64,000 nucleotides of DNA from Rhodopseudomonas pentothenatexigens (GTDB lineage: Bacteria > Pseudomonadota > Alphaproteobacteria > Rhizobiales > Xanthobacteraceae): positions 62,001 through 126,000 of the forward strand of contig NZ_UFQQ01000003.1 in assembly GCF_900218015.1 (NCBI RefSeq), written 5' to 3'. The notes below the pieces were generated by a model. It worked only from the letters and a program-made list of their open reading frames with translations. It made no database searches and was not told the DNA's origin. The translations under genes and the position numbers were made by a program. Positions 1,583 to 8,206 of the stretch are shown here, piece after piece (positions within the stretch are counted from its first letter, which is position 1; each line of letters opens with the position of its first letter).

Positions 1583-3469
1583 ATGTCTGCAGAGCCGTTT
1601 CAGTCGAAGCTGTACCGGACTGGACGATTGTCCGACGTCTTGCGCGACCTGACGTCGGCCGTCCGCAGGGGGCAGCAACGTGATGCGTACCAACGATCCG
1701 GGGCTCTAGCGCAGGTGTCCGCCGCGCCCCGCAGACGGATTTCGACGCTGATCATGGGCCGCTTCGCGCGGACCGTGATGGCGCGCGCCTCCAGCGGTTC
1801 GGTGGCGATGACCCGGCTGTGGCCCGGCCGCACCGACCGGCTGATCATTGCGCCGCACGATCTGCGCACTGCGGACGCGACCCGCGCTGCCGAGATCTAT
1901 GCCGGCCGCTTCGTATTCGCCGGCAAGATCGTCACCTGCCACGGCCGCTCGATCTTCGACCTCGAACCGCCTTCCGACGATTGGGAAGCGGCACTGCTCG
2001 GCTTCGGCTGGCTGCGCCATCTGCGCGCCGCCGACACCGCGATTACCCGCGCCAACGCCCGCTCGCTGGTCGACGACTGGCTCAGCAATATGTCGCGCAC
2101 CGGCCCGGTCGGACGGCGGCCGGACGTTTTGGCGCGGCGGGTGATCTCGCTGCTGTCGCAAGCGCCGCTGGTGCTGTCCGACACCGATGGCAAGTTCTAT
2201 CGGCGCTACCTGCGCGGACTGACCCGCGAAATCCGCGCGCTGCGCTACGCACTGCTCGATGTGCAGGACGGCGTGCCGCGGCTGCAGGTGCTGATCGCGC
2301 TGTGCTACGCGTCGCTGTGCCTCGCCAATCAGGCGCGTCAGATCCGCGGCGCGACCAAGAAGCTGTCGGACGAGCTGCAGCGCCAGATCCTCCCGGACGG
2401 CGGCCACATCTCGCGCAATCCGGGCGCGCTGATCGAATTGTTGATCGACCTGTTGCCGCTGCGCCAGACCTTCGCGGCCCGCAACATCGCGCCGCCGCCG
2501 GCGCTGCTGAACGCGATCGACCGGATGATGCCGATGTTGCGGTTCTTCCGCCACGGCGACGGCAATTTCGCGCTGTTTAACGGCATGAGCGCGACGCCGT
2601 CCGATCTGCTCGCGACGCTGCTCGCCTATGACGACAGCCAGGGCACGCCGCTCGCCAGCATGCCGCATTCCGGCTACCAGCGGATCGACGCCGGCACGAC
2701 GCTGGTGATCGTCGATGCCGGCGCGCCGCCGCCCGCCAATGTCAGCCAGGAGGCGCATGCCGGCTGCCTGTCGTTCGAATTGTCGTCGGGCCCGTGCCGG
2801 ATCGTGATCAACAGCGGCATGCCGACCACCAATCGCGAGAGCTGGCGCGGGTTTGCCCGTTCGACCGTGGCGCATTCCACCGTCACCTGCCACGACACCT
2901 CATCCTGCAGTTTCGTCGAGCGCTCGGCGATGAAGCGCTTTCTGCACGGCGCGCCGGTGGTCGGCGGTCCGCGCCAGGTCGAAAACCGCCGCGAAGACGT
3001 CGCCGGCGGCGTGCTGCTGACGACGTCTCACGACGGCTACCGCGACAAATTCGGCGTGCTGCATCGGCGCGTCCTGATGGTGAAGCATGACGGCAGCCGG
3101 GTCGACGGTGAGGACAGTCTGTCCCCGGTGCAGGGCGGTCGCCACCGCGCCGCGCAGGCCGATTATGCCGTACGCTTCCATCTGCACCCGCTGGTCAAGG
3201 CCAGTCGTCTGCACGATGCGCGCGGCGTGATGCTGGTGCTGCCCAACCGCGAAGTTTGGACCTTCGAGGCGGCCGACGACAAGGTCGATCTCGAAGAGAC
3301 CGTGTTCCTGGCCGGCAATGACGGGCCGCGGCGCTCGACCCAGATCGTGATCCGCCAGAATTCGATCGAGGCGCCAAACCTGCGCTGGAGCCTGATCCGC
3401 TCCAATGCCTCGCCGCAGGCGACCAGCGCCCGTCGCGCCGCCCGCCACGAGCCCGAACTGCCGCTCTGA
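1583..3469 (+). CDS. heparinase II/III family protein
   Basis: Protein of 628 residues resembling the heparinase II/III-like family found between rsmB and purH in Bradyrhizobium relatives. The N-terminal half is rich in helix and Arg, as in the alpha/alpha toroid of polysaccharide lyases. The C-terminal half (about 330-600) looks like the beta-sandwich heparinase domain, with the stretches SFELSSGPCRIVINSG (about 394-409) and STVAHSTVTCHDTSS near 430. No convincing signal peptide is visible. Substrate is unknown: members act on acidic polysaccharides, and a role in envelope or capsule polysaccharide turnover is inference. The start at 1583 has a weak ribosome binding site, so an internal start is possible. 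Confidence 0.8.
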   Translation: MSAEPFQSKLYRTGRLSDVLRDLTSAVRRGQQRDAYQRSGALAQVSAAPRRRISTLIMGRFARTVMARASSGSVAMTRLWPGRTDRLIIAPHDLRTADATRAAEIYAGRFVFAGKIVTCHGRSIFDLEPPSDDWEAALLGFGWLRHLRAADTAITRANARSLVDDWLSNMSRTGPVGRRPDVLARRVISLLSQAPLVLSDTDGKFYRRYLRGLTREIRALRYALLDVQDGVPRLQVLIALCYASLCLANQARQIRGATKKLSDELQRQILPDGGHISRNPGALIELLIDLLPLRQTFAARNIAPPPALLNAIDRMMPMLRFFRHGDGNFALFNGMSATPSDLLATLLAYDDSQGTPLASMPHSGYQRIDAGTTLVIVDAGAPPPANVSQEAHAGCLSFELSSGPCRIVINSGMPTTNRESWRGFARSTVAHSTVTCHDTSSCSFVERSAMKRFLHGAPVVGGPRQVENRREDVAGGVLLTTSHDGYRDKFGVLHRRVLMVKHDGSRVDGEDSLSPVQGGRHRAAQADYAVRFHLHPLVKASRLHDARGVMLVLPNREVWTFEAADDKVDLEETVFLAGNDGPRRSTQIVIRQNSIEAPNLRWSLIRSNASPQATSARRAARHEPELPL

Positions 3470-3654
3470 AGCGCGTTCCTTAGAATATGAAGCTTGCGGC
3501 GACCTTGGTCGCCGTTGTCGAGGGCGGTGAAAACTGCTACCGAACCGACGCCTTGCGCGACTGGCGACGTTAGGATGGAGCACCATCGGGAAGCGCGGGA
3601 CGTATCTGCCGCGCGCCTGGGCATAGCTTTCCTTCCAACAGAAGATCGTGCCCC

Positions 3655-5247
3655 ATGACCCAGAATCCCCGTCGCGTCACCCGTGCCCTGTTGTCCGTCT
3701 CCGATAAGACCGGACTGATCGATTTCGCCCGTGCGCTCGCCGGCCACGGCGTCGAGCTCGTCTCGACCGGCGGCACCGCCAAGGCGATCGCTGCGGCCGG
3801 CCTGCCGGTCAAGGACGTCTCCGAGCTGACCGGCTTCCCCGAGATGATGGACGGCCGGGTCAAGACCCTGCACCCCAAGGTGCATGGCGGCCTCTTGGCG
3901 ATCCGCGACAATGACGAGCACAAGCAGGCGATGGCGGCGCACGGCATCCCGCAGATCGACCTGTTGGTGGTGAACCTGTATCCGTTCGAAGCCACCGTCG
4001 ACAAAGGTGCGTCCTACGAGGACTGCATCGAGAACATCGACATCGGCGGCCCGGCGATGATTCGCGCCGCGGCGAAGAACCACGACGACGTCGCGGTGGT
4101 GGTCGAAGCAAACGACTATCAGGCGGTGCTCGATGAGCTCGCAGCCAACAACGGCGCGACCACGCTGAACTTGCGCAAGCGGCTCGCCGCCAAGGCCTAC
4201 GCGCGCACCGCCGCCTACGATGCGGCGATCTCCAACTGGTTCGCGCTGCAGCTCAAGACCGACGCGCCGGACTTCCGCGCGATCGGTGGGCGGCTGATCC
4301 AGAGCCTGCGCTACGGCGAGAACCCGCACCAGACCGCGGCGTTCTACGCCACGCCGGAGAAGCGCCCGGGAGTCGCCACCGCACGCCAGGTGCAGGGCAA
4401 GGAGCTGTCCTACAACAACATCAACGACACCGATGCGGCCTATGAGTGTGTCGGGGAATTCGACGCGGCGCGCACCGCTGCCTGCGTCATCGTCAAGCAC
4501 GCCAATCCGTGTGGCGTCGCCGAGGGCGCGAGTCTGCTCGATGCCTATCGCAAGGCGTTGGCCTGCGACTCGGTGTCGGCGTTCGGCGGCATCGTGGCGC
4601 TCAACCGCACCCTCGATGCGGAAGCCGCGCGCGCCATCACCGAGATCTTCACCGAAGTGATCATCGCGCCCGACGCCACCGAGGAAGCGATCGCGATCGT
4701 CGCGGCGAAGAAGAATCTGCGGCTGTTGCTGGCGGGCGCACTGCCCGATCCGCGCGCCAACGGCCTGACCTACAAGACCGTCGCCGGCGGCCTTTTGGTG
4801 CAGAGCCGCGACAATGCGGTGGTCGACGACATGGCGCTGAAGGTCGTCACCAAGCGGCAGCCGACCGAAGCCGAGCTGCGCGACCTGAAGTTCGCGTTCC
4901 GCGTCGGCAAGCACGTCAAGTCGAACACCATCATCTACGCCAAGGACCTCGCCACTGTCGGCATCGGCGCCGGTCAGATGAGCCGCGTCGACTCCGCCCG
5001 CATCGCCGCCCGCAAGGCGCAGGATGCGGCGGCTGAGCTGAAGCTCGCGGCGCCGATGACCAAGGGTTCGGTCGTCGCGTCGGATGCGTTCTTCCCGTTC
5101 GCCGACGGCATGCTGGCCTGCATCGAGGCCGGCGCCACCGCGGTGATCCAGCCCGGCGGCTCGGTCCGCGACGACGAAGTGATCAAGGCTGCAGACGACG
5201 CCGGCATCGCCATGGTGTTCACCGGCACCCGGCACTTCCGGCACTGA
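3655..5247 (+). CDS. purH: bifunctional AICAR formyltransferase / IMP cyclohydrolase PurH
   Basis: Catalyses the last two steps of de novo purine synthesis, formylation of AICAR and ring closure to IMP. At 530 residues it has the normal family length. The N-terminal MGS-like cyclohydrolase domain (about 1-150) includes [15 protein letters not shown] near residue 70. The C-terminal transformylase domain carries RYGENPHQ and the conserved KHANPCGVA near 280. The ATG at 3655 begins the standard start of the family ([13 protein letters not shown] follows). It is separated by 185 bp from the heparinase-like gene, so it probably has its own promoter. Confidence 0.97.
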
Positions 5248-5505: not shown

Positions 5506-6594
<1,089 letters not shown>

Positions 6595-6603
6595 GGCAGT
6601 TTG

Positions 6604-6617
6604 CTCCTGTTCAGGAG
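6604..6617 (-). promoter_or_regulatory. ribosome binding site of the DAHP synthase gene, inside a short palindrome
   Basis: CTCCTG-TT-CAGGAG is a perfect inverted repeat. Read on the minus strand its second arm CAGGAG is the Shine-Dalgarno sequence for the GTG at 6594. The repeat may weakly mask the site. The function of the masking is inference. Confidence 0.45.
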
Positions 6618-6633
6618 ACCTGCCGGCTGAAAC

Positions 6634-6659
6634 AAAAAAGCCGCCAGGTCTGGCGGCTT
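6634..6659 (-). terminator. attenuator terminator in the DAHP synthase leader
   Basis: On the minus strand AAGCCGCCA-GACC-TGGCGGCTT forms a perfect 9-bp stem with a 4-nt loop followed directly by a run of T. The hairpin lies between the aromatic leader peptide and the DAHP synthase start, so it would end transcription before the gene. On the plus strand there is no T-run, so it belongs to the minus-strand transcript. Its first arm is complementary to the element at 6704-6711 inside the leader-peptide gene, the expected antiterminator partner. Confidence 0.85.
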
Positions 6660-6681
6660 GTCGGATTTAATGCAGCAATCG

Positions 6682-6759
6682 TCAGATCGCGCGAAATCCT
6701 CCCGCCGCCAGCGAGCTGCTAAAGTAAAAGTACCAATACGAGGCGGTCAGGTGGATCAT
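6682..6759 (-). CDS. aromatic-rich leader peptide of the DAHP synthase attenuator
   Basis: A 25-residue ORF that starts at ATG 6759 and stops at TGA 6682. Codons 8-13 encode Tyr-Trp-Tyr-Phe-Tyr-Phe, six aromatic residues in a row; position 22 is another Phe. It precedes a perfect intrinsic terminator and then the first gene of aromatic biosynthesis, the classic arrangement of translation-coupled attenuation. An in-frame stop 6 bases upstream of the ATG fixes the start. The ribosome binding site (GAGCGG) is close to the ATG and weak. Seen: peptide, terminator, complementary arms. Inferred: stalling at uncharged Tyr, Trp or Phe tRNA allows read-through. Confidence 0.85.
   Translation of the reverse strand: MIHLTASYWYFYFSSSLAAGGFRAI
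6704..6711 (-). promoter_or_regulatory. antiterminator element of the DAHP synthase leader
   Basis: On the minus strand CTGGCGGC inside the leader peptide gene is the exact complement of GCCGCCAG, the first arm of the terminator at 6634-6659. The same element can also pair with CCGCC just upstream of the aromatic codons (about 6742-6746). This gives the two mutually exclusive folds needed for attenuation. Confidence 0.65.
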
Positions 6760-6808
6760 GCCCGCTCATATAGACCAGGTCGGCGTGTTTGTCCACGCAC
6801 CGGCGCGA

Positions 6809-8206
6809 TCAGTCCGCCGAGCCCCGAACCTGGGTCAGCAGCGCCAATCCGGCGACGAAGAACAGCACCAGCACGGCCATGCCGGCCTTCTGGCTGCTGG
6901 CCAACGCCGTGACGGTCGCGATCAGCAGCGGGCCGATGAACGACGTCACTTTGCCGGTAAGGGCGAACAGGCCGAAATACTGGGCGATCCGGTCCCGTGG
7001 GGCGATCCTGATCAGCAGCGTGCGCGATGCGGCCTGCAGCGGTCCGCCGGCGATGCCGATCAGGCAGCCGAGCAGCAGATAAGCGCGCTCCGCCGGTGAC
7101 GCGAACAATGCGCCTCCCGGTTGCGGCGGAGTCACTTCGATCAACAGAACATGGCTGGGATCGATCAGCAGGATGCCGGCGATTGCGACCAGCAGGAGGA
7201 GCAGCGAGCCGGCAATCACCCGTTTGGAACCGAACGCATCGTCGAGGCGGCCTCCGACGAACGCGCCGATGGTGGCTGCGATCGCCAGGATGATGCCGAA
7301 GGTGCCGATCTGGATCGTGCTCCAGCCGAAGGTGCCGGTGGCGTAGATGCCGCCGAACGCGAACAGCGACACCAGCCCGTCGGTGTAGATCATGTTGGCG
7401 AGCAGGAAGATTGCCAGCGAACGACGACGCGGCAGATCGCGCAGCGTCTCGCGGAGCTCGCGCAATCCTTCGCGGATCGCGGCCCGCGGCGCCAGCTTGG
7501 CCGGGAAGTCCGGCGTCAGCAGAAACATCGGCAGCACGAACACCACGAACCACACCGCTGTGAGTGGGCCGCTGATCCGATCGCCTTCGTGCTGCGCCGG
7601 ATCGAGTCCGAACCACGGTGCGATGCCGAGCAGCGTCTTGCCGGTGTCCGGGCTGGCGGCGAGGAAGCCGAGCACCAGGACGAGCGACAGGATGCCGCCG
7701 ACATAGCCGGTCGCCCAGCCGGTGCCGGACAGTCGGCCGATCTTCTCCGGCGGCACCAGATTGGGCATCATCGCGTTGTTGAACACGGTGGCGAATTCGA
7801 CCCCGATGGTGGCGATGGCGTAGGCGATCAGCAGCGGCAGAATCGTATGTGGTTCGCCCGGTTTGCCGAACCACATCAGCATCGATCCGATCACCAGCAT
7901 GGCGCCGAACAGCGCGATCCAGGGCTTGCGACGGCCGCTGGCATCTGCAATCGCGCCCAGCACCGGCGACGCCAAGGCGATGACGAATCCGCTCGCCGCG
8001 GTGGCGAAGCCCCACATCGATTGGCCGGTTGCCGGATCGGGCGCCACGTAGGTGGCAAAATAGGGCGCGAAAATGAAGGTGGTGATCAGCGTGAAGTAAG
8101 GCTGCGCCGCCCAGTCGAACAGGATCCAGCCGACGACGGCGCCCTGCGACGGATAGCGGATCGGTTCACGAGTTTGCGCGATGCCTTCCGCAAGCGACGA
8201 CGACAT
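6809..8206 (-). CDS. MFS transporter, UMF1/Atg22-like family
   Basis: Integral inner-membrane protein of 465 residues with about 12 hydrophobic segments, related to the UMF1 branch of the major facilitator superfamily. It begins with GWILFDWAAQPYFTLITTFIFAPYF, typical of the family, and has VLGAIADASGRRKPW in the loop between helices 2 and 3, the conserved MFS motif. The chosen ATG at 8206 is preceded by AAGGAA; a longer open frame upstream lacks family resemblance and overlaps the next gene's promoter. Substrate unknown. It is divergent from the gamma-glutamyltransferase gene (105 bp apart). Confidence 0.85.
   Translation of the reverse strand: MSSSLAEGIAQTREPIRYPSQGAVVGWILFDWAAQPYFTLITTFIFAPYFATYVAPDPATGQSMWGFATAASGFVIALASPVLGAIADASGRRKPWIALFGAMLVIGSMLMWFGKPGEPHTILPLLIAYAIATIGVEFATVFNNAMMPNLVPPEKIGRLSGTGWATGYVGGILSLVLVLGFLAASPDTGKTLLGIAPWFGLDPAQHEGDRISGPLTAVWFVVFVLPMFLLTPDFPAKLAPRAAIREGLRELRETLRDLPRRRSLAIFLLANMIYTDGLVSLFAFGGIYATGTFGWSTIQIGTFGIILAIAATIGAFVGGRLDDAFGSKRVIAGSLLLLLVAIAGILLIDPSHVLLIEVTPPQPGGALFASPAERAYLLLGCLIGIAGGPLQAASRTLLIRIAPRDRIAQYFGLFALTGKVTSFIGPLLIATVTALASSQKAGMAVLVLFFVAGLALLTQVRGSAD

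Follow-up and report, generated by a model that had tools for sequence, protein, structure and literature searches.

An aromatic leader peptide and a probable transcription attenuator before class I DAHP synthase in Rhodopseudomonas and other Proteobacteria

In Rhodopseudomonas pentothenatexigens, the gene for class I DAHP synthase is preceded by a short ORF with a row of aromatic codons and by an intrinsic terminator, which raises the question of whether translation of this ORF decides transcription of the gene. An earlier note on this DNA had read the arrangement as a classic leader-peptide attenuator. We followed up this reading in the window, by which we mean the whole analysed stretch of 64,000 nucleotides (contig NZ_UFQQ01000003.1, assembly GCF_900218015.1), and in related loci across the Proteobacteria. 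We are highly confident that a ribosome-mediated transcription attenuator controls class I DAHP synthase.

Layout of the locus and its putative promoter

All parts lie on the minus strand (Table 1). The 25-codon ORF with six consecutive aromatic codons, the 8-nt element within it that is exactly complementary to the first terminator arm, the perfect 9-bp terminator with its T-run and the palindrome over the ribosome-binding site were each found as the earlier note had described them. The downstream gene belongs to the aroFGH family, and its product stayed under the AroG equivalog cut-off (541.8 versus 568). The genome carries one class I DAHP synthase match and one class II DAHP synthase, and a leader search before the latter found none.

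Table 1. Features of the leader and the DAHP synthase gene in the window
Feature	Position	Strand	Description
Predicted -35 hexamer TGGACA	6790-6795	-	17-nt spacer to -10
Predicted -10 hexamer TATATG	6767-6772	-	ends 7 nt before leader AUG
Leader ORF MIHLTASYWYFYFSSSLAAGGFRAI	6759-6682	-	25 codons, stop UGA
Candidate region 1, CCGCC	6746-6742	-	could pair with region 2
Aromatic codons TAT TGG TAC TTT TAC TTT (Y W Y F Y F)	6738-6721	-	six consecutive codons, proposed stall sites
Region 2, CTGGCGGC	6711-6704	-	8-nt element within leader ORF, antiterminator 5' arm; exact complement of region 3
GGATTT	6694-6699	-	antiterminator extension, partner AAATCC
AAATCC	6663-6668	-	partner of GGATTT in antiterminator
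Region 3, GCCGCCAG	6657-6650	-	common to antiterminator and terminator
Intrinsic terminator	6659-6634	-	9-bp stem, 4-nt loop, six T; 3' arm is region 4
Terminator stem-loop AAGCCGCCA-GACC-TGGCGGCTT	6659-6638	-	
T tract	6639-6634	-	
Second occurrence of CTGGCGGC	6647-6640	-	spans end of terminator loop and second arm
Palindrome CTCCT/AGGAG	6617-6613 / 6608-6604	-	covers Shine-Dalgarno
Putative hairpin over Shine-Dalgarno (6608-6604)	6594-6625	-	extends to first base of DAHP synthase start codon
Class I DAHP synthase (aroFGH family)	5506-6594	-	GTG start; TIGR00034 528.3 bits, cut-off 173.2

In an Rfam search of the window and 15 loci, nothing at the leader exceeded the gathering score, and since only sub-threshold or unrelated hits were returned, the leader was assigned to no known RNA family. 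One sub-threshold hit of the window, Proteo-phage-1 RNA at 7465-7536 on the plus strand (31.1 bits, cut-off 42), lies inside the neighbouring MFS transporter-like gene and is probably a chance match. Separately, a glycine riboswitch pair was found near the DAHP locus of [Pseudomonas] boreopolis (L076:3448-3641, minus strand; 52.4 and 31.8 bits, gathering score 32).

A scan with the strict sigma-70 consensus found no promoter at the window leader; the hexamers in Table 1 come from a search that takes the best-scoring position and admits weaker hexamers than that consensus. Of 100 distinct leaders from Alphaproteobacteria, 93 had a best promoter-like site whose -10 element stops 6-8 nt short of the AUG (505 of 4000 shuffles), and 90 had a -10 there with a score of at least 8 (20 of 4000 shuffles). 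The leaders from outside this class, according to our own division by record titles and kinship data, had the -10 at this distance in 21 of 60 cases (269 of 2400 shuffles) and with a score of at least 8 in 11 of 60 (49 of 2400); the best promoter-like site of 32 of these 60 leaders lay 20-39 nt upstream. Because the -10 element ends 6-8 nt before the AUG in Alphaproteobacteria, the leader mRNA in this class is probably leaderless or nearly so, and the RNA of the window would start at about 6759.

Aromatic codons and distribution of the leader

An aromatic run is nothing rare when taken alone. In the 5.38-Mb genome that contains the window, TWYTGGTWYTWYTWY occurred twice and the same pattern read backwards, used as a control, three times; the second TWYTGGTWYTWYTWY occurrence is not taken as a leader, since it falls within an ORF of 332 aa. 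What exceeds chance is the placement of the run within a short ORF that is followed by a matching terminator, together with its conservation. When 162 regions upstream of DAHP synthase genes were searched for ORFs of 8-60 codons, one with at least six aromatic residues in eight was present in 97 of them. None of the 162 regions had one on the reverse strand, and there were 2 among 3240 Markov-resampled sequences; at a threshold of four in eight, the counts were 146 real regions, 12 reverse strands and 260 of 3240 resampled sequences. This set includes two mis-anchored loci on contigs that start near the gene: L154, which the contig end cuts just before the terminator, and L157, which keeps the terminator and the element and whose leader is below the detection threshold.

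Constraint was also seen at the codon level. The six positions hold aromatic codons without exception in 14 genomes of the genus (84 of 84), and these codons differ only by synonymous changes or Tyr/Phe exchanges. Among 157 distinct leaders with a terminator, the run holds Trp, Tyr and Phe codons in 124, lacks Trp in 32 and lacks Tyr in one, indicating that Phe and Tyr are nearly universal and that Trp is common but dispensable. Simultaneous sensing of Tyr, Trp and Phe, as the earlier note had proposed, may occur, codon content being no proof of the amino acid that is sensed.

We then asked how far the arrangement extends, using a strict rule that combines leader, terminator and region 2:3 complementarity. 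Of the 16 genomes of the genus, 14 encode class I DAHP synthase, and all 14 carry the attenuator arrangement; the two genomes lacking the gene gave no match to a leader covariance model. The order survey found the gene in 59 of 397 genomes, with the arrangement in 59 of 59, and the class survey found it in 14 of 385, of which 12 were new; 10 of these passed and the other two keep a terminator. Sixty of 80 named loci, the best 80 of a longer match list, also passed, including Mesorhizobium, Bradyrhizobium, Devosia, Xanthomonas, Rhodanobacter, Dyella, Bordetella, Burkholderia, Caballeronia and Massilia. At the phylum level the gene was present in 225 of 398 genomes, and 21 of 50 further loci passed (10 of the 50 were obtained as loci and the other 40 selected by hand for spread). 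In total, 163 of 214 loci passed and 51 failed (L175 was left out as the same gene as L153), with many Beta- and Gammaproteobacteria among those that passed. The named Citrobacter, Serratia, Erwinia, Pectobacterium and Entomohabitans loci failed, as did various others, and the 20 named failures include L100, which has only 52 nt of upstream sequence. The rule also misses the leaders L197, L198, L204 and L216 of family f236, in which the hairpins have large loops. Relatives thus keep the aromatic codons, the start, the frame and the complementary arms together, in agreement with the reading as a leader-peptide attenuator, for which the earlier note had proposed this comparison as a check. Outside the passing set, a contig of an Anaerolineae MAG (L103) carries an aromatic-rich leader (MSRYFSFFSWYGYFAAGQ...) before DAHP synthase that fails the strict rule, reflecting either a binning error or an independent origin.

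The covariance model, built from 41 leaders, was searched against the order genomes and matched in 57 of 397. Apart from DAHP synthase loci, these matches included five genomes of family f41, which gave no class I DAHP synthase match and in which a terminator and a leader of the type MIKTAATFVYFYYVTSIPAAA stand before a tyrS-like gene (L259-L263, from G152, G336, G413, G307 and G290); these leaders are rich in Tyr and Phe, and the terminator is of the form GCCGCC/GGCGGC. The gene downstream of L259 is a tyrosine-tRNA ligase (TIGR00234, 353.5 bits), and the other four look alike. Of the five genomes, the TyrS survey covered G152 alone; it has a second TyrS elsewhere in its genome, so the leader precedes one of two, and among 30 fetched tyrS loci only that of G152 has a Tyr/Phe leader. 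In the genus f16/g103 (L045 and L047, about 2657-3913), the attenuated DAHP synthase gene is directly followed by tyrS, and therefore the attenuator may also feed tRNA charging there.

A second copy of the DAHP leader was seen in a Bradyrhizobium-type genome (L258:307-830). Its aromatic run has decayed (RRFWHFTHR), and behind it the first 24 residues of a DAHP synthase run into another ORF. Tblastn with the window DAHP synthase found nothing in L258 at E 1e-3, and the remnant is visible only with the protein of the same genome. We take the joined ORF to resemble a DUF1127 protein, judging by eye; an NCBIfam search of it gave no hit.

Alternative pairing and rival explanations

In the mechanism that we favour, transcription would start at or beside the leader AUG. 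With charged aromatic tRNAs in short supply, the ribosome would stall on the Y-W-Y-F-Y-F codons and leave region 2 free, which would capture region 3; the terminator would then not form, and RNA polymerase would read into the DAHP synthase gene. With aromatic tRNAs plentiful, the ribosome would cover region 2, region 3 would pair with region 4, and transcription would end about 128 nt from its start.

The window leader folds better than chance would give: the stretch running from the AUG to the end of the terminator had a lower energy than 200 of 200 shuffles (z -3.7). We then modelled the fold with an assumed ribosome footprint, at equilibrium and with no kinetics. In nascent RNA ending inside the terminator, the predicted probability of the antiterminator was at least 0.99 with the A site on codons 8 to 12, 0.01 at codon 13 and 0 to 0.21 at codons 14, 15, 17, 20 and 24. 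The last aromatic codon (13) is borderline, since a slightly shorter nascent RNA, scored on the five-base core alone, still gave 0.9 there. In full-length RNA, the antiterminator reached 0.98 with the A site on codons 8-9, fell to 0.51 on codon 10 and was lost from codon 11, and the terminator stood at 0.90-0.91 with the ribosome at codons 11-12 and at 0.92 with no ribosome. Among 149 distinct leaders, a ribosome on the first aromatic codon left the antiterminator core at 0.5 or more in 134, and a ribosome covering region 2 brought it below 0.1 in all 149; at full length with no ribosome, a terminator of at least 0.5 was predicted in 147 (L085 being an exception, with an antiterminator of 0.93).

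Some results of the folding ran the other way. Full-length RNA of the window, as given above, favoured the terminator as soon as the ribosome stood at codons 11-12, and nascent RNA formed the antiterminator at 0.97 with no ribosome, which slightly lowers our confidence in the attenuator, and at 0.85 with a ribosome at the stop codon. Pairing of regions 1 and 2 alone would thus not keep region 2 from region 3 at equilibrium, and termination in replete cells must rely on a ribosome over region 2, or on the order of folding, rather than on the stability of this pairing. The earlier note had also proposed CCGCC, just upstream of the aromatic codons, as the arm of the alternative fold. The motif is present where described, and its pairing with region 2 is only partly conserved and gains no support from covariation: 77.8% of region 1:2 positions paired, no better than in shuffles, and the duplex score was in weak excess (mean 18.4 versus 16.8).

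The pairing of regions 2 and 3 exceeded chance. A duplex score of at least 20 was reached by 89 of 157 distinct leaders, versus 487 of 7850 dinucleotide shuffles of region 2, and with a narrower terminator finder by 68 of 143, versus 16 of 2860 when the arms were shuffled. An exchange of terminator arms among loci lowered the mean score only from 17.8 to 16.9 (11.9 for a shuffled arm), a poor control because the arms are alike. Of 164 loci with a terminator, 162 have the five-base core of region 2, and in 156 of these it can pair with region 3. Next to the core, flank position -1 co-varies, pairing in 57 of 83 distinct blocks against a permutation mean of 48.5, and 0 of 2000 permutations reached this count, relatedness being uncorrected; positions -2 (445 of 2000) and +5 (125 of 2000) do not stand out, and +6 is below the mean (1867 of 2000). 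In the 41 leaders of three genera, 89.0% of antiterminator positions were paired versus 88.0% in shuffles (0 of 500 as high), and the covariation score was reached in 20 of 500 shuffles; pairs changed on both sides were fewer than in shuffles (2 versus 2.9). The terminator pairs are nearly invariant and the core GGCGG/CCGCC is almost unvarying, and covariation therefore says little for the core helices.

Control might instead be mainly translational, with the hairpin over the Shine-Dalgarno as the gate and the upstream terminator secondary. Between the terminator and the gene, GCCGGCAGGT before the start and GCCGTG at the start hardly vary among the 41 sequences from three genera; the two segments pair around the Shine-Dalgarno, which stays paired through differing partners. 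The hairpin energy had a mean z of -2.4 versus shuffles both in 14 loci of the genus and in 20 Bradyrhizobium-type loci; in 11 Mesorhizobium-type loci, however, the mean z was only -0.7, not clearly better than shuffles. Moreover, a 9-bp intrinsic terminator with a T tract stands before the hairpin, and pairing of the hairpin with regions 1-4 is not established. We consider mainly translational control improbable, and the hairpin may be a separate translational element beside the attenuator.

It has also to be weighed whether the terminator is constitutive, or the locus a gene for a small RNA, in which case the aromatic ORF would encode a small protein of its own function and the alternative pairing would be incidental. 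The C-terminal part of the peptide is well conserved too (LAAGG, PLAEEG), the trpL leader peptide of S. meliloti is reported to regulate other genes (PMC7298713), and rnTrpL has been called a dual-function sRNA (PMC10117765). The conserved C-terminal part, however, coincides with region 2 at the RNA level, region 2 matches the terminator arm above shuffles, and the run stays aromatic through synonymous and Tyr/Phe changes, all of which leaves this explanation with very little probability. A T-box or metabolite riboswitch sensing the aromatic tRNA or amino acid directly is hardly credible, for although tyrosine genes are reported under T-box control in other bacteria (PMC1262725), the locus has no Rfam T-box or riboswitch match and its two sub-threshold hits are of other kinds. 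Ribosome-mediated transcription attenuation thus remains the reading that we prefer.

Known leaders and implications

Leaders that respond to several amino acids are known from the ilv and thr operons, and E. coli pheL and trpL have an architecture of stall codons, antiterminator and terminator. The leader described here shares these elements, whereas pheL and trpL serve one amino acid each before other genes, homology being judged only by the missing Rfam match; both are named as leaders in a review (PMC11802643). Similar in position is the AroR leader before aroF, a DAHP synthase gene, of C. glutamicum, for which ribosome-mediated attenuation with a Phe-Tyr-Phe motif is described (PMC4046766, PMC11802643) and which, despite this motif, is reported in the review to respond to Phe and not to Tyr (PMC11802643). 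Both are aromatic leader peptides before a DAHP synthase gene; AroR, however, is actinobacterial and has no Trp in its named motif, and the two are likened by description and not by sequence.

Among alphaproteobacterial attenuators, S. meliloti trpL (rnTrpL/peTrpL) has an mRNA that is reported to begin with the AUG (PMC10117765), as is predicted here. It serves Trp only and precedes trpE, whereas the present leader has Tyr, Trp and Phe codons before DAHP synthase. The motif uORFC-13-1 before aroF in Acholeplasma is likewise a candidate uORF attenuator upstream of a DAHP synthase gene (PMC8632094); it is reported only from Acholeplasma and environmental sequences, and is set apart from our leader by description. 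Attenuation has also been suggested before the DAHP synthase genes aroF and aroH in Shewanella, Vibrio and E. coli (PMC2659441, PMC1173090), with Tyr or an unknown signal as the input; this comparison, too, is by description only. A search of the open-access literature found these related aroF leaders and no description of the leader studied here, which key older surveys outside that search could mention; PMC2965389, PMC5082802 and PMC1273637 yielded nothing of relevance. On this ground the aromatic leader before DAHP synthase appears new and is widespread, the type of attenuation itself being already known.

A far-reaching extension of these results, which we put forward tentatively and regard as rather unlikely to hold as a whole, is that one old attenuator family is a main, so far unreported control of the first step of the shikimate pathway in much of the non-enteric Proteobacteria. 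It would read all three aromatic tRNAs in most lineages, be leaderless in Alphaproteobacteria, act together with a further gate on translation where the DAHP synthase gene starts and be reused with a Tyr/Phe leader before a tyrosyl-tRNA synthetase gene, and its terminated RNA and peptide may act in trans like rnTrpL.

The TyrR/TrpR picture of aromatic control was drawn for gammaproteobacteria (PMC5343134), and the attenuator would give a control circuit for the entry into aromatic amino-acid synthesis outside the TyrR/TrpR lineages. With six mixed codons, which of the three amino acids the composite leader senses is directly testable. The leaderless start in Alphaproteobacteria, if true, would be a natural case of transcription-translation coupling without a ribosome-binding site.
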